Positions 2,885 to 28,994 of a stretch of 36,442 nucleotides of DNA are shown here, piece by piece; within the stretch, counting starts at the first letter, position 1, and the number at the start of each line of letters is the position of its first letter. The notes under the pieces are model-generated. The model was given only the letters and a program-made list of their open reading frames with translations. It was not told the DNA's origin and searched no databases. Location of the stretch: the IMG/VR virus record IMGVR_UViG_3300028563_000048, positions 1 to 36,442 of that record. One strand, given 5' to 3'. A program made the translations under genes and the position numbers. Source of the stretch: a virus.

Positions 2885-2958
2885 GCCCGGTTAGTTCAAT
2901 GACAGAACACACCCTTTGTACGGCTGAGACGCGGGTTCGATTCCTGCACCGGGCTCCA
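2885..2958 (+). tRNA. tRNA-Thr(TGT)
   Basis: Acceptor GCCCGGT/ACCGGGC, D-stem GTTC/GAAC, anticodon loop TTTGTAC on stem CACCC/GGCTG (one C-C mismatch), T-arm GCGGG-TTCGATT-CCTGC, U73 and encoded CCA. First tRNA of the array. Confidence 0.85.
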
Positions 2959-3134
2959 CTATTCGGACGGCGACCGAATAATCAGCGGAACGAGACCAAA
3001 CCCGGTGTAGCGATACGGTGCGGGTGTAGTCCCCGAGATGAGTATGGTTAGGGGACAGGAGAGGGTTAAAACGAGGCGTCACCACCAGACACGCCTATCG
3101 TCCGTAAGCGGGGGTTCGCTGCCCGCACAGTTAA
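2959..3134 (+). other. structured inter-tRNA segment, unassigned RNA (core 3018-3128)
   Basis: This 176-nt gap holds no CDS and no normal tRNA. A 7-bp closing stem GTGCGGG (3018-3024)/CCCGCAC (3122-3128) encloses hairpins GTCCCC/GGGGAC (3029-3034, 3051-3056), AGGCGT/ACGCCT (3074-3079, 3091-3096) and a T-arm-like GGGGGTTCGCTGCCC. A separate hairpin ATTCGG/CCGAAT lies at 2961-2979. No CCA follows. It may be a degenerate or highly divergent tRNA, or a small RNA. Confidence 0.4.
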
Positions 3135-3208
3135 TCTCCCATAGTTCATTGGTAGAACACAACTTTGGTAAAGTTGAGAGGGTGGGTCGGAACCACCTGG
3201 GAGAACCA
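3135..3208 (+). tRNA. tRNA-Thr(GGT)
   Basis: Acceptor TCTCCCA/TGGGAGA, D-stem GTTC/GAAC, anticodon stem CAACT/AGTTG with loop TTGGTAA, T-arm GGTGG/CCACC with the non-canonical loop GTCGGAA, A73 and CCA. Confidence 0.9.
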
Positions 3209-3212
3209 ATAA

Positions 3213-3295
3213 GCCTCTGTGGTGGAACGCATACACACTTGTCTTAGAAACAAGCGCCGAAAGGCATGGGGGTTCAAATCCCTCCAGAGGTACCA
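3213..3295 (+). tRNA. tRNA-Leu(TAG)
   Basis: Acceptor GCCTCTG/CAGAGGT (first pair G-U), anticodon stem CTTGT/ACAAG with loop CTTAGAA, a long variable arm (GCC GAAA GGC) as expected for leucine, T-loop TTCAAAT, A73 and CCA. Confidence 0.9.
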
Positions 3296-3298
3296 AAT

Positions 3299-3375
3299 GC
3301 CTACATAGCCCAACGGCAGAGGCCATTTGCTCAAAACAAATCCCAGTCCAGGTTCAAATCCTGGTGTAGGCACCA
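3299..3375 (+). tRNA. tRNA-Leu(CAA) lacking the long variable arm
   Basis: Acceptor GCCTACA/TGTAGGC, anticodon stem ATTTG/CAAAT with loop CTCAAAA (anticodon CAA), T-arm CCAGG-TTCAAAT-CCTGG, A73 and CCA. The variable region is only 6 nt (CCCAGT), unlike normal class II leucine tRNAs, so the charging identity is uncertain. Confidence 0.85.
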
Positions 3376-3380
3376 AATAC

Positions 3381-3455
3381 GCTCCCTTAGCTTAGCGGCC
3401 AAAGCATCCGGCCTACACCCGGTGATCCCGTGTTCGAGTCACGGAGGGAGTACCA
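3381..3455 (+). tRNA. tRNA-Val(TAC) with C33
   Basis: Acceptor GCTCCCT/AGGGAGT, anticodon stem TCCGG/CCGGT (outer T-T mismatch) with loop CCTACAC, giving anticodon TAC after C33 instead of the universal U33. T-arm CCGTG-TTCGAGT-CACGG, A73, CCA. Confidence 0.8.
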
Positions 3456-3459
3456 ATAC

Positions 3460-3533
3460 GCTAGTGAACGGAAAAGTGACGGCGGCACCCGATAAGTGTC
3501 TTGCAGGAGGGGCAGTACCTCCCACTAGCACCA
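3460..3533 (+). tRNA. tRNA-Ile(GAT) with C33 and unusual T-loop
   Basis: Acceptor GCTAGTG/CACTAGC, anticodon stem GGCAC/GTGTC with loop CCGATAA (C33, anticodon GAT), T-stem GGAGG/CCTCC with loop GGCAGTA, A73, CCA. The D-arm is poorly paired. Confidence 0.75.
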
Positions 3534-3537
3534 ATAC

Positions 3538-3619
3538 GGACGGCTAACCTTAAAACCCAGCGTGGTGCGGGGCGGAACTTTTAACTCCGTGGTAAGAGGA
3601 TCGTAACCTCAGCCGTTCA
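3538..3619 (+). tRNA. degenerate tRNA-Lys(TTT)-like
   Basis: Acceptor GGACGGC/GCCGTTC pairs over 7 bp. Anticodon arm CGGAA-CTTTTAA-CTCCG has one mismatch and gives TTT. T-arm GAGG-ATCGTAA-CCTC has 4 bp. The D region is about 9 nt too long, and no CCA is encoded: the next tRNA starts 2 nt after base A73. It may need a CCA-adding enzyme or be decaying. Confidence 0.5.
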
Positions 3620-3620
3620 C

Positions 3621-3696
3621 GGACCCCTAGCATAATGGGTAGTGTGCTGGATTCTTAATCCATGCGGTCGGAGTTCAAATCTCCGGGGGTTCACCA
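3621..3696 (+). tRNA. tRNA-Lys(CTT)
   Basis: Acceptor GGACCCC/GGGGTTC, D-stem GCAT/GTGC, anticodon loop TTCTTAA on TGGA/TCCA, T-arm CGGAG-TTCAAAT-CTCCG, A73 and CCA. Confidence 0.85.
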
Positions 3697-3700
3697 ATAA

Positions 3701-3774
3701 GGCCCTGTAATTCAAAGGTAGAATGCCCGGTTGTCAACCGGAGAACGGCGGGTCAGTACCGCCCAGGGTCGCCA
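3701..3774 (+). tRNA. tRNA-Asp(GTC)
   Basis: Acceptor GGCCCTG/CAGGGTC, anticodon loop TTGTCAA on CCGG/CCGG, T-stem GGCGG/CCGCC with non-canonical loop GTCAGTA, G73 (expected for Asp) and CCA. Confidence 0.88.
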
Positions 3775-3788
3775 TTATGGAGAAAATA

Positions 3789-3944
3789 ATGCTGAAATGG
3801 ACTCTAAGCAAAGCCAAGAATGGCTATGTCCTGCATACACATACCGATAAAGACAGTTATGTTTTTATTTTTAGAACTTGGGATGAAGTCATCAAATTTC
3901 TGACTGACCATCCAACTTTAGGGGGTAAAGAGGGCGCAGAATAA
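3789..3944 (+). CDS. small hypothetical protein inside the tRNA array, 51 aa
   Basis: ATG 3789 is chosen because GGAG (3779-3782) lies 6 bases upstream; an upstream in-frame ATG at 3777 has no such site. The product (MLKWTLSKAKNGYVLHTHTD at the N-terminus, then YVFIFRTWDEVIKFLTDHP) looks like a compact alpha/beta domain. It resembles small phage proteins of unknown function. Its TAA ends at 3944 and the next tRNA begins at 3945, so the gene fills the gap between two tRNAs exactly. This abutment is part of a pattern seen for all five array ORFs. Confidence 0.65.
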   Translation: MLKWTLSKAKNGYVLHTHTDKDSYVFIFRTWDEVIKFLTDHPTLGGKEGAE

Positions 3945-4035
3945 CGGCGTTAGCTCAGGTGAGCGGCTGGGCCTTATAAACCCGGAGCACCAGATCGGTG
4001 TAGACGGGCGGGTTCAATACCCGCAACGCCGACCA
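3945..4035 (+). tRNA. tRNA-Ile(TAT)-like with long variable arm
   Basis: Acceptor CGGCGTT/AACGCCG, T-arm GCGGG-TTCAATA-CCCGC, A73, CCA. Anticodon loop CTTATAA on TGGG/CCCG (closing C-A mismatch) gives TAT. A long variable arm (CACC/GGTG) and a D-hairpin with 4-nt loop are atypical for isoleucine, so amino-acid identity is uncertain. Confidence 0.75.
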
Positions 4036-4047
4036 TTAGAGGATACC

Positions 4048-4389
4048 ATGCGTGTCATTGCCACAATGGATGGAAAGACTGTTCCAGCTACATTCTCATT
4101 GGTTGTCCATGGTGCTCCGCATAGACGGATGCACATACGGATGATCCAGCAGTACCGGGATGAGATCCGTAGGGCCTGTGATGCAGCAGGGATTATAACA
4201 CCGATAGACACAACAGTTGATTTGGCTGTTTTGTTTGTTGATCCAACAAGTCCGGATTATGACAATCTCTTGGCTGCTCTGTACCAAGCCATGGATGGAG
4301 CGACCTTGAAAAAGCCCGGAATCCTTGTTGATGATAGCCTTATAGGAACGATCCGGAGGCTAGCGAAATACAGTTCTAAGGATGCGTAG
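4048..4389 (+). CDS. RusA-like Holliday-junction resolvase, 113 aa, in the tRNA array
   Basis: ATG 4048 follows AGAGGA. The protein carries the RusA core: DLAVLFVDPTSPDYDNLLAA (Asp70, Asp72, Asn73) and GILVDDSLIG (Asp95, Asp96). In Escherichia coli RusA three such aspartates bind the metal and cut Holliday junctions as a dimer; length (about 120 aa) also fits. The N-terminal half is more divergent than in the second RusA gene of this window (8378-8749). The stop TAG at 4387-4389 is formed by bases 8-10 of the next tRNA-Arg, so gene and tRNA overlap by 10 nt. It may act in recombination of the array, but that is inference. Confidence 0.7.
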   Translation: MRVIATMDGKTVPATFSLVVHGAPHRRMHIRMIQQYRDEIRRACDAAGIITPIDTTVDLAVLFVDPTSPDYDNLLAALYQAMDGATLKKPGILVDDSLIGTIRRLAKYSSKDA

Positions 4390-4457
4390 CTTAACTGAAC
4401 AAAGCGCCGACCTCCGAAGTCGGGAGATTCCAGGTTTGAGTCCTGGCGCATTCACCA
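4380..4457 (+). tRNA. tRNA-Arg(CCG)
   Basis: Acceptor GGATGCG/CGCATTC, D-stem GCTT/AAGC, anticodon stem CCGAC/GTCGG with loop CTCCGAA, T-arm CCAGG-TTTGAGT-CCTGG, A73 and CCA. Its first 10 bases are also the end of the upstream RusA-like ORF. Confidence 0.9.
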
Positions 4458-4546
4458 AATGGCATAGAGAGGGGCCTAACCGCCATTGCCGATGCCAGAT
4501 TACAGCCGAGTTGGTATTACAACTCTCTTGCTCGGCCAGCCAATAT
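4458..4546 (+). other. unassigned structured segment between tRNAs
   Basis: This 89-nt gap ends in GCCAATA, the same 3' context as the real tRNAs. GAGTTG/CAACTC (4508-4513, 4520-4525) and GCCGAG/CTCGGC (4505-4510, 4531-4536) are alternative hairpins. TGGC near its 5' end can pair with GCCA near its 3' end. I could not fit a convincing anticodon arm. It may be a tRNA relic. Confidence 0.35.
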
Positions 4547-4636
4547 GGAAGGGTAACTTGGGCGGCCCCAAGCCTCGTCTTGAAAACGAGTGGAAGGCGA
4601 AAGCCTTTGGAGATCGACACTGCCACCCTTCCTCCA
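4547..4636 (+). tRNA. tRNA-Ser(TGA)
   Basis: Acceptor GGAAGGG/CCCTTCC, anticodon stem CTCGT/ACGAG with loop CTTGAAA, long variable arm AAGGC-GAAA-GCCTT, T-arm with a bulge and loop ATCGACA, U73 and CCA. Confidence 0.88.
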
Positions 4637-4658
4637 CATTCAGTTGTTACAAGACTTA

Positions 4659-4735
4659 CGCGGGATGGAGCAGGAGTAGCTCGCGTGGTTCATACCCACG
4701 AGGACGATGGATGCGACCGCCATCTCCCGCAACCA
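4659..4735 (+). tRNA. initiator tRNA-fMet(CAT)
   Basis: CGCGGGA pairs with TCCCGCA except for the first position, giving the C1-A72 mismatch that marks initiator tRNAs. D-stem GAGC/GCTC contains the initiator A11-U24 pair. Anticodon stem CGTGG/CCACG with loop TTCATAC. It ends ACCA and is 77 nt, like Escherichia coli tRNA-fMet. The T-loop appears enlarged (GATGG/CCATC). Confidence 0.9.
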
Positions 4736-4739
4736 ATAC

Positions 4740-4811
4740 AGCGGCAGTTCCGAAGAACAGGAGATCCTCATAAGGTCTCACAGGTGGGGTTAGCACCCAC
4801 AGCCGCTACCA
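4740..4811 (+). tRNA. tRNA-Met(CAT), elongator or Ile2 type
   Basis: Acceptor AGCGGCA/AGCCGCT (innermost A-A mismatch), D-hairpin GTTC-CGAA-GAAC with only a 4-nt loop, anticodon stem AGATC/GGTCT with loop CTCATAA, T-stem GTGGG/CCCAC with loop GTTAGCA, A73, CCA. Could read AUG, or AUA if C34 is lysidine-modified. Confidence 0.82.
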
Positions 4812-4812
4812 T

Positions 4813-4898
4813 GCCTCAGTAGGCTGCTAAGGACGCAGCGCCGTCTGTAAAACGGATGCCTTCGGGCTGGCCAGGATCGTTCCCTGGGTGAGGCACCA
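4813..4898 (+). tRNA. tRNA-Tyr(GTA)
   Basis: Acceptor GCCTCA/TGAGGC, anticodon loop CTGTAAA on CCGT/ACGG, long variable arm GCC-TTCG-GGC as expected for tyrosine, T-stem CCAGG/CCTGG with loop ATCGTTC, A73, CCA. It starts one base after the previous CCA. Confidence 0.88.
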
Positions 4899-4901
4899 AT
4901 T

Positions 4902-4975
4902 GCGGCCATAGCTCAATGGAAGAGCTTCTGCTTGCCAAGCAGAGGACGCCGGATCGTAACCGGCTGGCCGCTCCA
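4902..4975 (+). tRNA. tRNA-Gly(GCC)
   Basis: Acceptor GCGGCCA/TGGCCGC, anticodon stem TCTGC/GCAGA with loop TTGCCAA, T-stem GCCGG/CCGGC with loop ATCGTAA, U73 (expected for Gly) and CCA. Confidence 0.92.
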
Positions 4976-5144
4976 ATTATGCTCCGTCAGGGTTCGACTC
5001 CCGGACGACACCTAAGAGAAAACCTGATGAATTCTAGAACAACGTCAGGCTAGTATCGGATGACGCTAACTGGTGACATAGAGATTATGGGCAGCGGTGC
5101 CTTATGCTCTGTGGGCGGAATCGTCAGCCGCCGAGCGCCAATAC
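4976..5144 (+). other. unassigned multi-hairpin RNA-like segment, tRNA-like ends
   Basis: No CDS. GCTCCGT (4981-4987) can pair with GCCGAGC (5130-5136), followed by G73-like base and CCA at 5138-5140, as if one 160-nt tRNA-like gene. Inside are a T-arm-like hairpin (4985-5007, loop TTCGACT), CCTGATG/CGTCAGG (5023-5029, 5043-5049), CATAGAG/CTCTGTG (5077-5083, 5107-5113) and GGCGG/CCGCC (5114-5118, 5128-5132). A tRNA split by an insertion, or a small tmRNA-like RNA, are options; neither is shown. Confidence 0.4.
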
Positions 5145-5220
5145 GCCTACTAAGCTAATCTGGTGAAAGCGCCTGTCTGAAGAGCAGGAGAGCCTGGATC
5201 GAAACCAGGAGTGGGCACCA
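5145..5220 (+). tRNA. tRNA-Phe(GAA)
   Basis: Acceptor GCCTACT/AGTGGGC, anticodon stem CCTGT/GCAGG with loop CTGAAGA, T-stem CCTGG/CCAGG with loop ATCGAAA, A73 and CCA. Confidence 0.92.
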
Positions 5221-5235
5221 ATTCAGGGAATAGCG

Positions 5236-5718
5236 ATGAGCATAGCTAGCGTACAGCAGCGCAGGTTGGCTAAAAGAAAAGAACTTCTCGGTATGAGTTT
5301 CGGTACGGCCAGGGCTAGATTAGAGCGCGCTCTACTGTACGAGATGGCTATAAAACTTGGCATGGATTCCTGTTTTAGATGTTCTAAAAAGATTGAATCT
5401 GTGGCCGAGTTTTCGATTGAACATAAGATCGGCTGGCAATTGTCCTCTGATCCAGTCCAGACCTACTTCGATATGGCAAACATCGCATTCTCTCACAGAA
5501 CCTGTAACTCTAATGCTGCCCAAAAACGCATACTCCCTCACGGAGTAGCGAAAAGCAGGAACTGCAAATGCGCTCCTTGCCTAGAGGCAAGAAATAAATA
5601 CAACGCCGATTGGATGGATAATTGGCGCAAGAATGGTAAGGACAAAACCCGAAAGAATTATCGGGGACCGCGCTGGGGCGCAATTATCCCTTGCAAGGAT
5701 GATGGGCTCGGATCGTAA
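5236..5718 (+). CDS. HNH homing-type endonuclease whose 3' end overlaps tRNA-Ala
   Basis: ATG 5236 follows CAGGGA. Residues 46-49 (CFRC) and the segments FSIEHKIGW (His63) and ANIAFSHRTCNS (His87, Cys90, Asn91) form an HNH zinc-finger nuclease core; a second cysteine cluster CKCAPC is at 110-115. Such free-standing nucleases cut DNA at a target site and spread by homing. The last 18 codons are read from inside tRNA-Ala (5663-5734) and the TAA stop is the TAA of the tRNA T-loop, a 56-nt overlap. The gene therefore appears to sit upstream of a tRNA that supplies its stop. Catalytic activity is inferred from the motif only. Confidence 0.8.
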   Translation: MSIASVQQRRLAKRKELLGMSFGTARARLERALLYEMAIKLGMDSCFRCSKKIESVAEFSIEHKIGWQLSSDPVQTYFDMANIAFSHRTCNSNAAQKRILPHGVAKSRNCKCAPCLEARNKYNADWMDNWRKNGKDKTRKNYRGPRWGAIIPCKDDGLGS

Positions 5719-5734
5719 CCGAGGGTCTCCACCA
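5663..5734 (+). tRNA. tRNA-Ala(TGC)
   Basis: Acceptor GGGGACC/GGTCTCC contains the alanine identity pair G3-U70. Anticodon stem TATCC/GGATG with loop CTTGCAA, T-stem CTCGG/CCGAG with loop ATCGTAA, A73, CCA. The D-hairpin GCGC-TGGG-GCGC has a 4-nt loop. It overlaps the 3' end of the HNH gene by 56 nt. Confidence 0.88.
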
Positions 5735-5738
5735 ATAT

Positions 5739-5816
5739 TCCAGTTGAGTCGCCTTGGTGGCGACGGAGTGCTGTTAACACTCGCCGAGCTTGGTTCGAAT
5801 CCAAGAACTGGAGCCA
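5739..5816 (+). tRNA. tRNA-Asn(GTT)
   Basis: Acceptor TCCAGTT/AACTGGA, anticodon stem GAGTG/CACTC with loop CTGTTAA, T-arm CTTGG-TTCGAAT-CCAAG, G73 (expected for Asn) and CCA. Confidence 0.93.
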
Positions 5817-5820
5817 ATAA

Positions 5821-5894
5821 GCAGCTATCGTCTAATGGCAGGACACTACCCTCTCAAGGTGGTAACGCGGGGTCAGTACCCGCTAGCTGCTCCA
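5821..5894 (+). tRNA. tRNA-Glu(CTC)
   Basis: Acceptor GCAGCTA/TAGCTGC, D-stem GTC/GAC, anticodon stem CTACC/GGTGG with loop CTCTCAA, T-stem GCGGG/CCCGC with loop GTCAGTA, U73 and CCA. Confidence 0.88.
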
Positions 5895-5898
5895 ATAC

Positions 5899-5981
5899 CG
5901 GCATGTAACCGAGCGGTGCTACGAACGCCGTATCCGTAACTGGAGTTGCAAATGGGAGTTCAAATCTCCCCATGCCGTCCA
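5899..5981 (+). tRNA. tRNA-Arg(ACG) with collapsed D-arm
   Basis: Acceptor CGGCATG/CATGCCG, T-arm GGGAG-TTCAAAT-CTCCC, U73, CCA. The only good anticodon arm is CGGTG-CTACGAA-CGCCG (anticodon ACG, same loop as Escherichia coli tRNA-Arg). That leaves only 8 nt for the D-arm and 23 nt for the variable region, an unusual architecture. Confidence 0.72.
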
Positions 5982-5985
5982 ATAT

Positions 5986-6062
5986 CTGCGTGTAGGAAAG
6001 CCTGGAAATCCGCCTGCCTTGGAAGCAGGAGACCGCTGGATCGAAGCCAGCCACGCAGACCA
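5986..6062 (+). tRNA. tRNA-Pro(TGG)
   Basis: Acceptor CTGCGTG/CACGCAG, anticodon stem CCTGC/GCAGG with loop CTTGGAA, T-stem GCTGG/CCAGC with loop ATCGAAG, A73 and CCA. Confidence 0.92.
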
Positions 6063-6066
6063 ATAC

Positions 6067-6141
6067 GCCCCTTTAGTCCAGCGGAACGGACGACCGGCTC
6101 TGACCCGGTAGACGATTGTTCGACTCAATCAAGGGGTGCCA
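6067..6141 (+). tRNA. tRNA-Gln(CTG)
   Basis: Acceptor GCCCCTT/AAGGGGT, anticodon stem ACCGG/CCGGT with loop CTCTGAC, T-arm GATTG-TTCGACT-CAATC, G73 (expected for Gln) and CCA. Confidence 0.92.
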
Positions 6142-6145
6142 ATAT

Positions 6146-6219
6146 GAGGATGTGGCCGAATGACTAGGCGGTGGATTGCAAACCCACCCAAGCAGGTTAA
6201 AATCCTGCCATCCTCTCCA
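6146..6219 (+). tRNA. tRNA-Cys(GCA)
   Basis: Acceptor GAGGATG/CATCCTC, anticodon loop TTGCAAA on GTGGA/CCCAC (closing A-C), T-arm GCAGG-TTAAAAT-CCTGC, U73 (expected for Cys) and CCA. The next tRNA starts directly at 6220. Confidence 0.92.
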
Positions 6220-6294
6220 GGACCCGTATTTAACTGGATAAAGCCGTGCCTTCTAAGCACCGGGATCGAGGTTCGAGTCCTCGCGGGTTCACCA
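6220..6294 (+). tRNA. tRNA-Arg(TCT)
   Basis: Acceptor GGACCCG/CGGGTTC, D-stem TTTA/TAAA, anticodon loop CTTCTAA on GTGC/GCAC, T-arm CGAGG-TTCGAGT-CCTCG, A73 and CCA. Confidence 0.92.
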
Positions 6295-6298
6295 ATAA

Positions 6299-6374
6299 CT
6301 TTCCGTAGCACAATGGATAGTGCCTTCGCCTCCTAAGCGATTGTATCGAAGTTCGAATCTTCGCGGAAAGACCA
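6299..6374 (+). tRNA. tRNA-Arg(CCT)
   Basis: Acceptor CTTTCCG/CGGAAAG, anticodon loop CTCCTAA on TCGC/GCGA, T-arm CGAAG-TTCGAAT-CTTCG, A73 and CCA. Confidence 0.92.
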
Positions 6375-6390
6375 ATTACGGAGGATGACA

Positions 6391-6567
6391 ATGGAGCCAT
6401 GGAATCGTTGTGATGTGTGCGGAAAATTCATCTCTATGGATGATTTCGATCACGGCGCGGTTCGTGAGCTTGTCTATCCAGACTCTGAATTCACGCGAGA
6501 GACGTTCGAAACTCTTTGTAAAGAACATGGAAAGTTAAGTAGGCAAGTGCCTACCGCTCCCTGCTAA
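6391..6567 (+). CDS. small CCCH zinc-binding protein ending inside tRNA-Ser
   Basis: ATG 6391 is chosen because GGAGG (6380-6384) lies 6 bases upstream; an in-frame ATG at 6385 touches that site. The 58-aa product has Cys7-x2-Cys10 (CDVCGKF) and Cys43-x2-His46 (LCKEHGK), a plausible zinc site. Similar minimal zinc proteins are common in phages, role unknown. The last 12 codons lie within tRNA-Ser(GCT), and the TAA stop is formed by the last base of the anticodon and the two A residues 3' of it, a 39-nt overlap. It may be a cassette that borrows its stop from the tRNA. Confidence 0.6.
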   Translation: MEPWNRCDVCGKFISMDDFDHGAVRELVYPDSEFTRETFETLCKEHGKLSRQVPTAPC

Positions 6568-6615
6568 GGAGACGGCACCGTAAGGTGTGGGGATCAAGAC
6601 CTCAACTTTCCGCCA
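6529..6615 (+). tRNA. tRNA-Ser(GCT)
   Basis: Acceptor GGAAAGT/ACTTTCC, anticodon loop CTGCTAA on CTCC/GGAG, long variable arm GCACC-GTAA-GGTGT, T-stem TGGGG/CCTCA with loop ATCAAGA, G73 (expected for Ser) and CCA. Overlaps the upstream ORF by 39 nt. Confidence 0.9.
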
Positions 6616-6631
6616 TTTTCAGGAGAATTTT

Positions 6632-6814
6632 ATGGCAAGATTCAAGGTGGTTTTACAGGAAACTTCCTTCTATATCTTGGAATTAGACGCTGATGACGAT
6701 GCTAAGGCCCGGAAGGAAGCACAGTCTTATGTGGCGAGATTCCCAGGCATCGCCCGGAAAAATGCTCGCGGGCTCGTTCTTTGGCATAGCGAAGAAATTG
6801 CGGACTTAGCGTAG
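6632..6814 (+). CDS. small hypothetical protein ending inside tRNA-Gly, 60 aa
   Basis: ATG 6632 follows AGGAG at 6621-6625. The product (MARFKVVLQETSFYILELDA at the N-terminus, then DDDAKARKEAQSYVARFPG) fits a beta-strand followed by an amphipathic helix. I do not recognise a family. The last four codons and the TAG stop (6812-6814) lie inside tRNA-Gly(TCC), overlapping it by 15 nt. It fills the gap between tRNA-Ser and tRNA-Gly completely, like the other array ORFs. Confidence 0.65.
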   Translation: MARFKVVLQETSFYILELDADDDAKARKEAQSYVARFPGIARKNARGLVLWHSEEIADLA

Positions 6815-6873
6815 AGGCAACGTGCTGGTCTTCCAAACCAGAGTCCGGAGTTCGAACCTCCGAGTCCGCACCA
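6800..6873 (+). tRNA. tRNA-Gly(TCC)
   Basis: Acceptor GCGGACT/AGTCCGC, anticodon stem CTGGT/ACCAG with loop CTTCCAA, T-arm CGGAG-TTCGAAC-CTCCG, A73 (glycine tRNAs usually have U73) and CCA. Confidence 0.9.
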
Positions 6874-6877
6874 ATTT

Positions 6878-6952
6878 GGGGCCTTAGTTTACCGGCTAGA
6901 ATCTGGCGCTTTCATCGCCAAGGAGCGGGATCGACACCCGCAGGCCCTCCCA
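6878..6952 (+). tRNA. tRNA-Glu(TTC)
   Basis: Acceptor GGGGCCT/AGGCCCT (first pair G-U), anticodon stem TGGCG/CGCCA with loop CTTTCAT, T-stem GCGGG/CCCGC with loop ATCGACA, C73 and CCA. Confidence 0.88.
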
Positions 6953-6954
6953 AT

Positions 6955-7023
6955 AGCCCAAGTCTGGGACAACCAGAGCCTTTGAAGCTCTGAAGCTCAG
7001 TCCGATTCTGAGGTGGGCTGCCA
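6955..7023 (+). tRNA. tRNA-Gln(TTG), 69 nt with minimal D-loop
   Basis: Acceptor AGCCCA/TGGGCT, D-hairpin GTC-TGG-GAC (3-nt loop), anticodon stem AGAGC/GCTCT with loop CTTTGAA, T-stem CTCAG/CTGAG with loop TCCGATT, G73 (expected for Gln) and CCA. Unusually short. Confidence 0.85.
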
Positions 7024-7027
7024 ATAC

Positions 7028-7104
7028 GCTGGGTATGCTCGATGGCAATGAGCGGTCGGACTGTGAATCCGGACGATAGAGTTCGAATCTCTAACCCAGT
7101 TCCA
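7028..7104 (+). tRNA. tRNA-His(GTG)
   Basis: Acceptor GCTGGGT/ACCCAGT, anticodon stem TCGGA/TCCGG with loop CTGTGAA, T-arm TAGAG-TTCGAAT-CTCTA, U73, CCA. No encoded G-1 opposite C73, unlike most bacterial His tRNAs; alphaproteobacterial ones are also atypical. Confidence 0.9.
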
Positions 7105-7180
7105 GGGAGTGTAGTTTAACTGGCCAAAACCTCGGTCTCCAAAACCGAAGATTCCCGTTCAAATCGGGCCACTCTCGCCA
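7105..7180 (+). tRNA. tRNA-Trp(CCA)
   Basis: Acceptor GGGAGTG/CACTCTC, anticodon stem TCGGT/ACCGA with loop CTCCAAA, T-arm CCCG-TTCAAAT-CGGG, G73 (expected for Trp) and CCA. It begins directly after the previous CCA and ends the array, 12 bases before a convergent gene end. Confidence 0.92.
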
Positions 7181-25028: not shown

Positions 25029-28000
25029 TCAAACCTTCGGTGGTTTTAGCTTCTTCAGGGTCTCGATATTTTGCTTGCGGACCCCAACCACGAACTTGTC
25101 CAGGACCCTGTGACCAGCTTCTAGGTCGCCGTGCCCTATTTCGCGGACTTGATCAGGGTGAAGAACGACCTCGCCACCCGCTGCAATGATCGGGATATCT
25201 TCGGTTGCGCCGCCATCGGCAAATTTTCCAAGCCGAAGACGAGCCATGTGGGGTGGTCGCGCTGGCTTTAGTTTGCCCCCGGACAATTGGCCGGTCGAGC
25301 CTGGGCTAGCTGGTCCAGACTTGAACATCGTGCCGAGGATTTTCTCGCCTGCCATGGTGTTACCTTGGCCGAGAGCGGATGGAATGTCTGCCGGTAAAAT
25401 ATATGATCCGGGAGGGACACTCATCGGAATCTTATCGGTCCTACCTGGGATTGAGGACTTGATCATGCCCGCTGGGTGGCGGGGGTGGATGGAGCCGCCC
25501 GTAGCCATCTTGACCCTATGCATGAGGCCGGGAATGCCGCCGCGATTCATCTTGTCTTTCTCCTGGGCACCATAGGTGAATAGGCCGCCACCAGCCACCC
25601 CGGCGAGAGGCCAGCTTTTGTGGAGATCCTTGATGGCGAACTTGGCGTTAGGGCCACGAAGAATCGCCGTATTCAGGATCACGTATTGATCGTGAAGGCC
25701 GGAGGTCGGGTCCATCATATTCTTGATGATCAGCAACTGATCGCCACGTTTCTTGGCGGCCAGAATGGCATTATGAACCGCAGTCGGATTCCAGTCAGCG
25801 TGACCGGCGTAATCCGCGAAATCGATTGTAGAGGCTTTGTCAGCCCTCATGATGTACGAGCCACCTACCTGCCCATACTTATCAGACGCCCACTTCTCCT
25901 TCGCTGCGAACCACCCCGGTTCGTAGGACTTGGTTGATGGGTCGTCGATATACTTTGGATAGCTCTTATCTTCTGGGTGCGGATTGTAGATGTCGCCGCC
26001 CTTATAGATTTCGAAGTTGGAGTTGAAGCCTCTCAACTCGGCCAGCTTTCTCTGGAAAGCATTCTTAAACGCTGGCGGATTCCACTGACCGCCAGGGGTC
26101 CAGTTCCTGAAATCCTTGATCGGCTCAAGATACTTGGAGGCAAAGGCAATTCCGATTGGACTGTTCTTTTCGTTGTTAGCCGCGCTTCGACCCTGCTGAA
26201 ACGTAAAATCTCCAGTAGCGACTTTCTTGGCTTCATCGGCGGCCTTAATCGCCTCAAGTTCTTTTTTGGCTTCGCCGTAATGGTAAGCAATCGCTCCATG
26301 AAGATGGGAAGGTGTGTTGGAATAAACCTTATCGGCATAGTTAGGGTATGCTTGATATAGCTTAGCTATCTCTGTGCCGATGCCTTTCACGTCATAGTCA
26401 TCGACCATTCCGTTCGGTCCGGTCTTGAAGTGCTCCATTAACTTGTTGGCTTCTTTCGGGGCGTTCAGGCTTTGGCTGGCATATCCGCCCGGGATAGGCT
26501 CGTAACCCTTCGCCCCGATCTGAGCAGGAATCTCAGGCTCCTTGCCTTCGATCTTGGCTGCATAGCTATCAAGTTCATCGATGAACTTCTTATCCTTCAG
26601 GACCGACGCCGGAGGCTTAAAGCTCGTGGTCTGCGTGGTGTAGAAATCGTACTCGGATGGGTACTTTCCATCCTTTCCGCTGCCCTTGGCGATGGAGTTG
26701 AATGGCGAGTATTCTAGAGAGTCTTTCAGCGCTGCGATTCTGTGACCAACATCGACTTGAATCTTAGGCGGCAACGCACGGAACAGCGCCTCCGCAGTCT
26801 GCGGATTCACACTGTCTGCAATCTCCCAGAGATGATGGGCGGTATCCCATGCAGAGCCATTGGTCAGATTCTTGGCAACAGCAGACAGAGCACTCTTATC
26901 AATCTTCTCTCCGCTCATCAGCCATTGAGCGGCTGGAGTGTCTTTCCATTTGTCGGAAATGGCGTCCTTTGCTGGGCGCGGAACTGCCACATCATCCGGC
27001 ATAGGCGGCGGTGTCGCCTCCTTCTCCCACTTGGCGTAGTCGTCTTCCGTGAATGGGATCTGCTGATATTCGTCAATTGCCGGGCGGGCTGGTTCTACCG
27101 ACTTGGGCGCGGTGTATGCCGTGCTCTGGCCTGGAACGACGCCGAACTCTGTCTCGATGTTATGCTTGCGCTTCAGGAGCGTGGATAGAAGCTGGAGCTT
27201 CTCCATCTTACCAGGAGGACCGTATAGCTCGATGAGTTTGGCAATGTCCTCGCCCTTGACGTTGGCGATCTTCTGAGCGCCGACCATGGCCGCCTGATGA
27301 TCGACTCCGCCAAAGACCTCAGCCGATAGGTGGCTGTATTCCGGGTCCTTCATGGTATCGAGTTCATCGACCTCGGGCGTGAACTTGGCCTTCTTGCTGC
27401 CGGTGCCCTTGTATAGAAGACCGCCGCCGGTATCGATGACGTGAGCCTTCCCGGTCTTATCGATGATGATGTTGCCGAGCGGGTTTTCCGGTCCTGTCCC
27501 TACAGCATCATGGTTGGCCAGCAGGGCGTGGATCGGGAAGTTCTCGTGTAACTCCGGGACCTGGGCATAATCCGAAGTGGCGTGACCTAGCTGGGAGCCC
27601 TCGATCTTCTTGCTGGCGATGCCGGGCTTACCGCCAACGGTCGTCAGGTGAACATCGGCCACAGGAACGCCGAAGAGCTTGTATAGCTCGGCAGTCAGCT
27701 TCTCGTTCTTGGCTTGCTCAAGGTTGGGGGCCTGCTTCACATACCATTCTGTACCTGTGGCAGGATCGACCTTGAACCCTCCAGGCATTGTGCCTTTGGA
27801 TAGGCCGACTGACTTGAAATGAGCGGTATCCATAAAGCCTTGGCGCACAGCGGACTTAGCCCCGGCCTTAGCCGCCATACCCGCAATACCGGTAGCAGCA
27901 CCCTTCAGTAGGCCCCAGCCCACCCCGGTTCCTGGGGAGCCAGCGAAGGTGGACGCGACCTCTCCAAGGATTGGAGCGCTGCGAGAGATTGGGTCCTTCT

Positions 28001-28994
28001 GGACTTCAGGAATCTTGCCTGGAGTTTCCGGGATAGGTTGTTCGGCTAGGTACTTGCCTTCCTCGTCCTTAGTGAACGGATCAGCCAAGTCCTTATAGTG
28101 CTGGATCATTCCAGATCCGACGCCGCGAACAGCAGCGCCAATATCCGGGCTCGCGTTGAATTCCTGTTGTGGTGGCGTCTCAGGCTTGATTGGAGACGGC
28201 TGACCGAACCAATCGGCGGCCTTCCTGGCGTAGGTCGAGACAAGCTCGCCGGGAGTCGGTGGCTTGGTCACAGTGATCTGTGGACGGCCTTCGGGGGACT
28301 TAGGTACGCTTTCCCATTCGTCTGGAACGTCTCCGCCATCGGCGTAGCCGACCTTGCCACCACGAAACATGCCAACCGGCTTTTTGCCACCGTCGCCCTT
28401 AAGCCATGACTTAAACGCATCGATATTCATCGGGGTGACTTCCCCGATTCTCAGGTGGCCCTTACCGTCAGAGAAGGCCTTACGATAAGCCTCTACGGCA
28501 TCGTCTTGGTTTCTGTAACCAAGCATGGCTTTGTGTTCGTCGAACTCCTTAGAATCATCGTGAACTTGATCGATAATGAATACTTTATTGCTATTAGCAT
28601 CAGGTCCGACATACACATCGACATGATCGCCATCTGCGCCTTCAGTGCGCTTGATGTATCCATAATGGTCAGGCATCTTAACCGACCAAACCTTGCCGTC
28701 CTTCCCGACACCAGAGCGCATCGATCCCTTTGGGTTCTCAATAGAGATTGGGAGTCCCTGGAATGAGATGTGGGCTTTCTTATAGTTTCCAGCTTCCTTC
28801 TGTGCCTCGGAGGGGTTTGTATCGACAGCGCCACCATTGGCGTATTTGCGTGCCGTTCGCAGCGCTGCTTGGGTCTTATCGGCAGCAACAAACTCTTTGG
28901 CTACAGACACAGAGGGGCCGCCGCCTCCTGGCTTCTTCCAGCCGTTGGCGACCGCGCGCATGAGGCGAGCTTGCGCTTCGCTGGTTGATGGCAT
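25029..28994 (-). CDS. 1321-aa polyvalent ejection protein: pyrophosphatase-like and kinase-like domains
   Basis: Residues about 68-200 resemble an inorganic-pyrophosphatase-like domain (VKMPDHYGYIKRTEGADGDH, VDVYVGPDANSNKVFIIDQV). Residues about 393-560 have a HipA/PI3K-like kinase pattern: GGFKVDPATGTEWYVKQAPN, then ANHDAVGTGPENPLGNIIID and VIDTGGGLL. Near 1048-1110 lies SYIMRADKASTIDFADYAGH with DQYVILNTAILRGPN. The C-terminus carries IPMSVPPGSYILPADIPSAL and EVVLHPDQVREIGHGDLEAG, seen in other ejection proteins. Such polyvalent proteins enter the host with the DNA and probably modify host components. Domain limits are approximate. Confidence 0.7.
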   Translation of the reverse strand: MPSTSEAQARLMRAVANGWKKPGGGGPSVSVAKEFVAADKTQAALRTARKYANGGAVDTNPSEAQKEAGNYKKAHISFQGLPISIENPKGSMRSGVGKDGKVWSVKMPDHYGYIKRTEGADGDHVDVYVGPDANSNKVFIIDQVHDDSKEFDEHKAMLGYRNQDDAVEAYRKAFSDGKGHLRIGEVTPMNIDAFKSWLKGDGGKKPVGMFRGGKVGYADGGDVPDEWESVPKSPEGRPQITVTKPPTPGELVSTYARKAADWFGQPSPIKPETPPQQEFNASPDIGAAVRGVGSGMIQHYKDLADPFTKDEEGKYLAEQPIPETPGKIPEVQKDPISRSAPILGEVASTFAGSPGTGVGWGLLKGAATGIAGMAAKAGAKSAVRQGFMDTAHFKSVGLSKGTMPGGFKVDPATGTEWYVKQAPNLEQAKNEKLTAELYKLFGVPVADVHLTTVGGKPGIASKKIEGSQLGHATSDYAQVPELHENFPIHALLANHDAVGTGPENPLGNIIIDKTGKAHVIDTGGGLLYKGTGSKKAKFTPEVDELDTMKDPEYSHLSAEVFGGVDHQAAMVGAQKIANVKGEDIAKLIELYGPPGKMEKLQLLSTLLKRKHNIETEFGVVPGQSTAYTAPKSVEPARPAIDEYQQIPFTEDDYAKWEKEATPPPMPDDVAVPRPAKDAISDKWKDTPAAQWLMSGEKIDKSALSAVAKNLTNGSAWDTAHHLWEIADSVNPQTAEALFRALPPKIQVDVGHRIAALKDSLEYSPFNSIAKGSGKDGKYPSEYDFYTTQTTSFKPPASVLKDKKFIDELDSYAAKIEGKEPEIPAQIGAKGYEPIPGGYASQSLNAPKEANKLMEHFKTGPNGMVDDYDVKGIGTEIAKLYQAYPNYADKVYSNTPSHLHGAIAYHYGEAKKELEAIKAADEAKKVATGDFTFQQGRSAANNEKNSPIGIAFASKYLEPIKDFRNWTPGGQWNPPAFKNAFQRKLAELRGFNSNFEIYKGGDIYNPHPEDKSYPKYIDDPSTKSYEPGWFAAKEKWASDKYGQVGGSYIMRADKASTIDFADYAGHADWNPTAVHNAILAAKKRGDQLLIIKNMMDPTSGLHDQYVILNTAILRGPNAKFAIKDLHKSWPLAGVAGGGLFTYGAQEKDKMNRGGIPGLMHRVKMATGGSIHPRHPAGMIKSSIPGRTDKIPMSVPPGSYILPADIPSALGQGNTMAGEKILGTMFKSGPASPGSTGQLSGGKLKPARPPHMARLRLGKFADGGATEDIPIIAAGGEVVLHPDQVREIGHGDLEAGHRVLDKFVVGVRKQNIETLKKLKPPKV

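Follow-up and report, generated by a model that had tools for sequence, protein, structure and literature searches.

The IMG/VR virus record IMGVR_UViG_3300028563_000048, which we analysed over its whole length of 36,442 bases (the window; probably a fragment), carries an array of 32 tRNA genes in 4.3 kb of the plus strand (2885-7180). The array covers all 20 amino acids and includes an initiator. It falls under the definitions of a phage tRNA gene cluster (at least 15 tRNAs at a density of at least 2 per kb in a viral genome) and of a complete-isotype cluster (20 amino acids plus an initiator).

To avoid circularity, we scored the entire window, unfiltered, with a covariance model (R1) built from 60 tRNAs that belong to six other contigs; no tRNA of the window entered the training set. 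R1 identified exactly 32 plus-strand tRNA sites within 2885-7180, with expectation values (E) between 7e-19 and 0.011. Outside the array no site does better than E 1.1, and two antisense shadows lie inside the array (E 0.0015 and 0.095). ARAGORN identified 22 tRNAs in the array with its standard model and 30 with its mitochondrial model. The Rfam tRNA model placed 18 above its cut-off in a scan of the whole window and 20 in short-stretch and own-genome scans; we rejected this model as an arbiter because it misses tRNAs with altered T-loops. An original prediction, made from the sequence alone, had listed 32 tRNAs for all 20 amino acids and took as support at least 28 confident tRNAs for 20 amino acids from tRNA finders and a covariance search. 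R1 recovers the full 32, and the results from ARAGORN, Rfam and R1 together bear out the coverage of 20 amino acids.

Nearly all of the genes encode the terminal CCA. The array opens with tRNA-Thr(TGT) (2885-2958, R1 score 67.2 bits, T-loop TTCGATT). Further genes are Leu(TAG) (3213-3295, 40.4 bits), Val(TAC) (3381-3455, 68.3 bits), Lys(CTT) (3621-3696, 68.5 bits), Arg(CCG) (4380-4457, 59.3 bits), Ser(TGA) (4548-4636, 18.5 bits), Asn(GTT) (5739-5816, 40 bits), Gln(CTG) (6067-6141, 67.7 bits) and Cys(GCA) (6146-6219, 49.3 bits), the last with A56 rather than C56. Toward the 3′ end lie Arg(TCT) (6220-6294, 62 bits), Arg(CCT) (6299-6374, 70.8 bits), Gly(TCC) (6800-6873, 73.9 bits), Gln(TTG) (6955-7023, 27.4 bits), His(GTG) (7028-7104, 51.4 bits) and Trp(CCA) (7105-7180, 54.3 bits). 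Genes with altered T-loops or other unusual features are described below. Weak scores fall to Met(CAT) at 4740 (E 0.011), Lys(TTT) at 3539, Ser(TGA) at 4548, Ser(GCT) at 6529 and Tyr(GTA) at 4813, which are mostly syntenic. Of all the genes, Met(CAT) at 4740 is among the least certain.

This is a full tRNA array of a known kind, represented by phage T5 and by eight complete clusters. The survey of Morgado and Vicente (2019; PMC6409571) describes viral clusters of 15-37 tRNAs, eight of them with all 20 isotypes; it used ARAGORN, the standard model of which detects 22 of the 32 tRNAs here. Full sets with an initiator are thus less exceptional than the original prediction had claimed. That prediction made no mention of the altered T-loops, of the UAU tRNA with its long variable arm or of the structured RNA that lies among the tRNA genes, all described below. 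Like the present array, the T5 region contains annotated tRNAs for 20 amino acids, a tRNA-fMet and interspersed HNH endonucleases, and it also has an Ile-CAT and several stable tRNA-like RNAs. T5 differs in its gene order, in its larger size (121,750 bases) and in its T-loops, as all 21 of its scored tRNAs have T54-A58. The Anabaena trn operon, with 26 tRNAs induced by translational stress, is likewise a large mobile tRNA array thought to be helpful under such stress, but it resides on a cyanobacterial plasmid (PMC10272220).

Altered T-loops and other unusual tRNAs

Many tRNAs of the array depart from the canonical U54-A58 pair of the T-loop, with A54 or G54 in 11 of the 26 well-folded tRNAs of the window. 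G54-G58 occurs in Thr(GGT) (3135-3208, 61.1 bits), Asp(GTC) (3701-3774, 61.1 bits), Glu(CTC) (5821-5894, 60.3 bits), Met(CAT) (4740-4811, 16.6 bits, with a 4-nucleotide D-loop) and Ile(GAT) (3460-3533, 26.6 bits), where the T-loop GGCAGTA also lacks U55 and position 33 is C. A54-T58 occurs in Lys(TTT) (3539-3619, 18.4 bits), Gly(GCC) (4902-4975, 70.6 bits), Ala(TGC) (5663-5734, 30.5 bits, 4-nucleotide D-loop) and, judged by eye, Tyr(GTA) (4813-4898, 23.4 bits). A54-A58 occurs in Phe(GAA) (5145-5220, 55.8 bits), Pro(TGG) (5986-6062, 60.9 bits), Ser(GCT) (6529-6615, 20.8 bits) and Glu(TTC) (6878-6952, 57.9 bits).

The same replacements recur across the phage arrays. We assembled 261 array tRNAs with an encoded CCA, six or more acceptor pairs and five pairs in the T-stem. 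Bases 54 and 58 are T-A in 170, G-G in 32, A-A in 31, A-T in 25, C-A in two and T-G in one, so that T54-A58 is replaced in 35% of the set. The ARAGORN mitochondrial model was alone in finding about 40 of the 261, which are enriched in altered loops; among the 221 found by the standard model, T54 is missing in 59. All 32 tRNAs with G54 have G58. When base 58 was shuffled within isoacceptors (10,000 permutations), G-G pairs averaged 12.1 and reached a maximum of 20, versus the 32 observed. Base 55 is G in 15 of the 261, and pseudouridine 55 (Psi55) therefore cannot form in these.

The altered loops are unevenly distributed among isoacceptors. T54 is absent from all 8 Ile-GAT and all 10 Glu-TTC tRNAs, from 9 of 10 for Glu-CTC and from 10 of 12 for Asp; the Arg, Asn and Trp tRNAs of the arrays always keep it. 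Between this phage and the related contig L063, the 54-58 class differs in 11 of 22 shared isoacceptors. The same procedure applied to T5, phiCbK, KVP40, XacN1 and a Brevundimonas phage gave 102 T-A and one C-A among 103 tRNAs. In a Bradyrhizobium genome that carries a homologous array (see below), 14 of 14 chromosomal tRNAs are T-A, and its array contains several tRNAs without T54.

By one account, conservation of U54 is universal, and the special case is A54-A58 in eukaryotic initiators (PMC7912444). Our structural reading is that the G-G or A-A replacements would form a trans Watson-Crick/Hoogsteen pair in place of U-A. As far as our literature search reached, covarying T-loop replacements of this kind are undescribed, and we found no mention of altered T-loops in the parts of the 2019 survey that we consulted (PMC6409571).

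Several individual tRNAs are unusual in other respects. The separate tRNA-fMet foreseen alongside tRNA-Met is found at 4659-4735 (CAT, 43.8 bits), with the C1xA72 mismatch and A11-T24, both hallmarks of initiators. Of the three G-C pairs usual in the anticodon stem, however, this gene keeps two, and its T-loop has 9 nucleotides. The four arginine anticodons originally listed (CCG, ACG, TCT and CCT) stand, with ACG the less certain. This gene (5899-5981, 32.8 bits, E 3e-7) has an abnormal D-arm, and its anticodon is ACG by the ARAGORN mitochondrial model and CCG by a relaxed model; relatives have a normal Arg-ACG at the corresponding place. The Leu(CAA) gene (3299-3375, 55.2 bits) is 77 nucleotides long and has no long variable arm, as in contigs L063, L064 and L070; it is longer in L056 and L067.

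A tRNA with a UAU anticodon and a long variable arm (3944-4035, 29.2 bits) takes the place that Ile2 (CAT) has in other arrays in this phage and in L063, L056 and L064. The variable-arm stem shows compensatory changes, and by eye the D-loop is a 4-nucleotide AGGT in three of the four. Opposite ATA codons of the phage, 93 of 130 aligned residues in relatives are Ile, Val or Leu, and 6 are Ser. This tRNA thus most likely inserts isoleucine. We rejected a selenocysteine tRNA (28.6 bits to the Rfam tRNA-Sec model, cut-off 47) and a serine allo-tRNA, given the acceptor/T-stem split of 7/5 and the alignment of ATA with Ile, Val and Leu. Allo-tRNAs with a UAU anticodon and irregular tRNAs in polycistrons have been described in soil metagenomes (PMC7609411). 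They share with the array the UAU anticodon, the long variable arm and the presence of irregular tRNAs in polycistrons, but have an 8/4 or 9/3 split rather than 7/5. The soil UAU allo-tRNAs and polycistrons may be related to the phage UAU tRNA.

Element X, a structured RNA beside the tRNAs

The spacer between the two Thr tRNAs (2959-3134) is not a tRNA. It contains a structured RNA with a three-way junction, which we term element X (type A, plus strand, 2976-3109), flanked by a D-arm-like hairpin on the 5′ side (about 2959-2980) and a T-arm-like hairpin on the 3′ side (to about 3125). A Klebsiella N4-like phage carries a match to the spacer (75.6% across 120 nucleotides, E 6e-14), and a 23-nucleotide core, CCGGTGTAGCGATACGRYGCGGG, is present in 41 viral contigs. 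An alignment of 33 homologues supports 27 pairs, with 150 double-change cells versus 42 ± 6 in shuffles, and 96% of cells are paired versus 29-48% when the structure is slid.

A junction motif, AACGAGGCGTC...ACGCCTA, is also found around different inserts, and by eye some of these contain tRNAs or permuted tRNAs. In lambdoid phages such as CUS-3 and HK629 the motif lies between Q and the holin gene. Some matches to the pattern ACGAGGCGTN{3,14}ACGCCTA alone are perhaps due to chance, and our conclusions rest on type A, as defined by the 23-nucleotide core and the 33 aligned homologues. Further copies of element X lie in contigs L062 (4990-5140), L113 (about 4525) and L190 (2486-2672). In L190 the flanks read by eye as acceptor, D-arm and T-arm, with the three-way junction replacing the anticodon loop. 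Some copies resemble circular permutations. In L123, a tRNA-like sequence with a stop-reading TTA anticodon and no CCA (about 1820-1990) runs into an element X junction.

No family in Rfam 15 matches element X, and the copy in L113, a lambdoid relative, has no Rfam match even at E 10. The YrlA model (RF02553) has no match over element X in the window, L113, L170, L190 or L153; we rejected an identity with YrlA and leave it as a possible functional analogue. We likewise set aside the T5 stable RNAs and T4 rnaC/rnaD as candidates: a search of the T5 region did not return the motif, and inspection of the T4 RNAs by eye did not reveal it. Element X is a separate, widespread RNA uncatalogued in Rfam 15, and it is probably a tRNA-shaped accessory RNA.

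Relatives of the array and genomic surroundings

A small open reading frame (ORF) inside the array (4048-4389, plus strand) provided a probe for relatives. We identified eleven loci in IMG/VR with arrays in the same gene order, with gaps, and one genome in GTDB, Bradyrhizobium sp. BR13661, with the same array (L213, 4772-10061). Within the family of BR13661, one of 392 genomes, BR13661 itself, carries the array. Its upstream neighbours resemble, by eye, ordinary metabolic enzymes. No homologue of the phage structural protein was found in the BR13661 genome, suggesting that the array there sits in another element or a degraded insertion. Contigs with both the structural protein and the array reach 69-76 kb, with one of 104 kb. 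The structural protein is 44-59% identical across phages that keep the array order, and 86% identical between this phage and L063. The tRNA bodies diverge strongly between phages and keep their acceptor and T stems through compensatory changes, which argues that the array tRNAs are functional.

The probe ORF keeps its position in nearly all homologous arrays examined, preceded by the Ile2 or UAU tRNA and usually followed by Arg. It is RusA-like by a weak match to RusA (1q8r, E 0.22), and its AlphaFold model (predicted local distance difference test score 56.6) is too poor for a fold search. Most homologues have PDLGN in place of the PDYDN motif, and the protein may thus no longer be a nuclease. 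A second ORF inside the array (5236-5718, plus strand) resembles HNH homing endonucleases (PHROG 23251, E 4e-23).

RNA repair and quality-control genes accompany several homologous arrays. An RtcB gene lies inside the Bradyrhizobium array (Pfam E 4e-66). Ro60 (TROVE) genes lie inside the array of L068 (3000-5322) and directly after the arrays of L064 (after 5274), L071 (11630-12750) and L072 (5620-7644). Tandem Y-RNA-like units precede Ro60 in L068, L071 and L072, some with a permuted tRNA mimic; one unit reaches 34.6 bits with the YrlA model, whose cut-off is 69. The Salmonella genes for RtcB, Ro60 and Y RNAs lie in one operon (rsr-yrlBA-rtcBA), and cleaved tRNAs induce it (PMC7790460). Ro60, Y-RNA-like units and RtcB accompany the homologous arrays, with the difference that they are here attached to tRNA genes.

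Downstream of the array the window encodes structural proteins of the tail and head, with a P22-type stabilization protein among them (best complete-genome match, a 61 kb phage), a GH108 endolysin, a GcrA regulator and a DnaA C-terminal domain. The GcrA and DnaA domains point to a host that is probably alphaproteobacterial, an assignment also suggested by the homologous array in Bradyrhizobium. A protein of 1,321 amino acids (25029-28994) combines an inorganic pyrophosphatase domain with a stretch matching phage proteins annotated as ADP-ribosyltransferase. PADLOC, applied to eight window proteins, returned nothing beyond a weak match of a GIY-YIG ORF to PD-T4-3. When the array was scanned for promoters and terminators, promoter-like sites were no more numerous than in shuffles. 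A perfect 19-bp hairpin (2831-2877) lies directly 5′ of the array, and the same palindrome occurs in L063 between Thr-CGT and Thr-TGT. T-arm-like remnants in the gaps at 4978-5140 and 4456-4547 are perhaps decayed tRNAs.

Possible roles of the array

With ordinary wobble, only TTA lacks a reader (19 of 7,830 phage codons), and for 12 of the 20 amino acids an anticodon of the array matches the most frequent codon exactly. The array is one minimal decoding set, with about one tRNA per decoding group, and is not tuned to the codons of the phage. Replacement of a lost tRNA pool thus fits better than codon compensation. We favour, with about even confidence, a horizontally kept cassette that supplies a near-complete second tRNA pool when host tRNAs are damaged or depleted. 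Conservation of the cassette's function is suggested by the recurrence of gene order in arrays whose diverged tRNA bodies keep their stems. Array RNA would be transcribed and processed after infection and the tRNAs charged by host synthetases. They would then sustain phage translation when defence nucleases cut host tRNAs or host shut-off lowers them. The RtcB, Ro60 and Y-RNA-like genes found with homologous arrays provide the best indirect support for tRNA damage as the selective force; together with the minimal decoding set, they support use under host tRNA cleavage indirectly.

Several points weigh against a replacement pool. We infer expression and charging of the array tRNAs from sequence. 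Some of the tRNAs could also be poor substrates, since their D-loops are very small or their D-arms damaged. RtcB and Ro60 accompany some relatives only, RtcB just the single bacterial array, and neither was seen in this window (the TROVE model was not run on it). In near relatives that share the structural protein, the contigs, which are fragments, carry few tRNAs or none, and the array may be dispensable in some settings. Relaxed selection could also be the source of the T-loop changes.

Three other explanations account for part of these observations. Alphaproteobacteria are often higher in G+C. The phage has a G+C content of 0.50-0.60 (about 54%) and its host probably belongs to this group, so the tRNAs could serve codons that the phage uses more than its host does. 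This is unlikely in view of the composition of the set: it provides roughly one reader for each box and is not limited to A/T-ending ones, it includes readers of high-G+C-host codons (Lys-CTT, Glu-CTC, Gln-CTG and Gly-GCC), and it lacks a reader for TTA, the rarest Leu codon. The mini D-loops, the altered T-loops and an RNA that has a tRNA shape but no anticodon loop would also suit bait for tRNA-targeting nucleases, and the tRNA mimic of YrlA has been proposed as a competitive inhibitor of an anticodon nuclease (PMC7790460). A main role as such decoys rather than in translation, be it for all the tRNAs or at least for element X and the odd tRNAs, is nonetheless quite improbable to us, as nearly all genes keep an anticodon, an acceptor stem and an encoded CCA, and the set spans all amino acids.

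The HNH or GIY-YIG-like ORFs in several arrays, and the patchy occurrence of the array, are features expected of a neutral or selfish tRNA island that is carried by homing endonucleases and changes its T-loops under relaxed selection. The compensatory changes in the stems, a coupling of G54 to G58 that far exceeds the permuted values, and an order conserved across phages with such diverged structural proteins make this explanation very doubtful.

Within the favoured reading of a second tRNA pool, the altered T-loops would keep the L-shape with a different 54-58 pair while losing the site of 5-methyluridine 54 (m5U54; TrmA) and, in some tRNAs, that of Psi55 (TruB). The most likely reason would be selection for phage tRNAs that avoid, or do not need, the host factors by which a standard T-loop is read. 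A Burkholderia CdiA toxin cuts tRNA between T54 and Psi55. We infer that the altered loops may serve escape from host T-loop enzymes or nucleases. More broadly, we suggest tentatively, as a possibility well short of probable, that the tRNA sets of these phages and of related islands have left the standard T-loop, with a 54-58 pair that changes among T-A, G-G and A-A/A-T from one close relative to another, work without m5U54 and partly without Psi55, and thereby evade nucleases or host enzymes that recognise the TPsiC loop, with element X beside them as a decoy or regulator.

The discrepancy between 22 and 32 tRNAs in this array suggests that standard tRNA finders undercount phage tRNAs, and element X exposes a phage RNA family missing from Rfam 15. 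The arrays offer a natural set of covarying 54-58 replacements for a direct test of the roles of U54, its methylation and Psi55, and they let one ask whether phages change the tRNA elbow against host defence.

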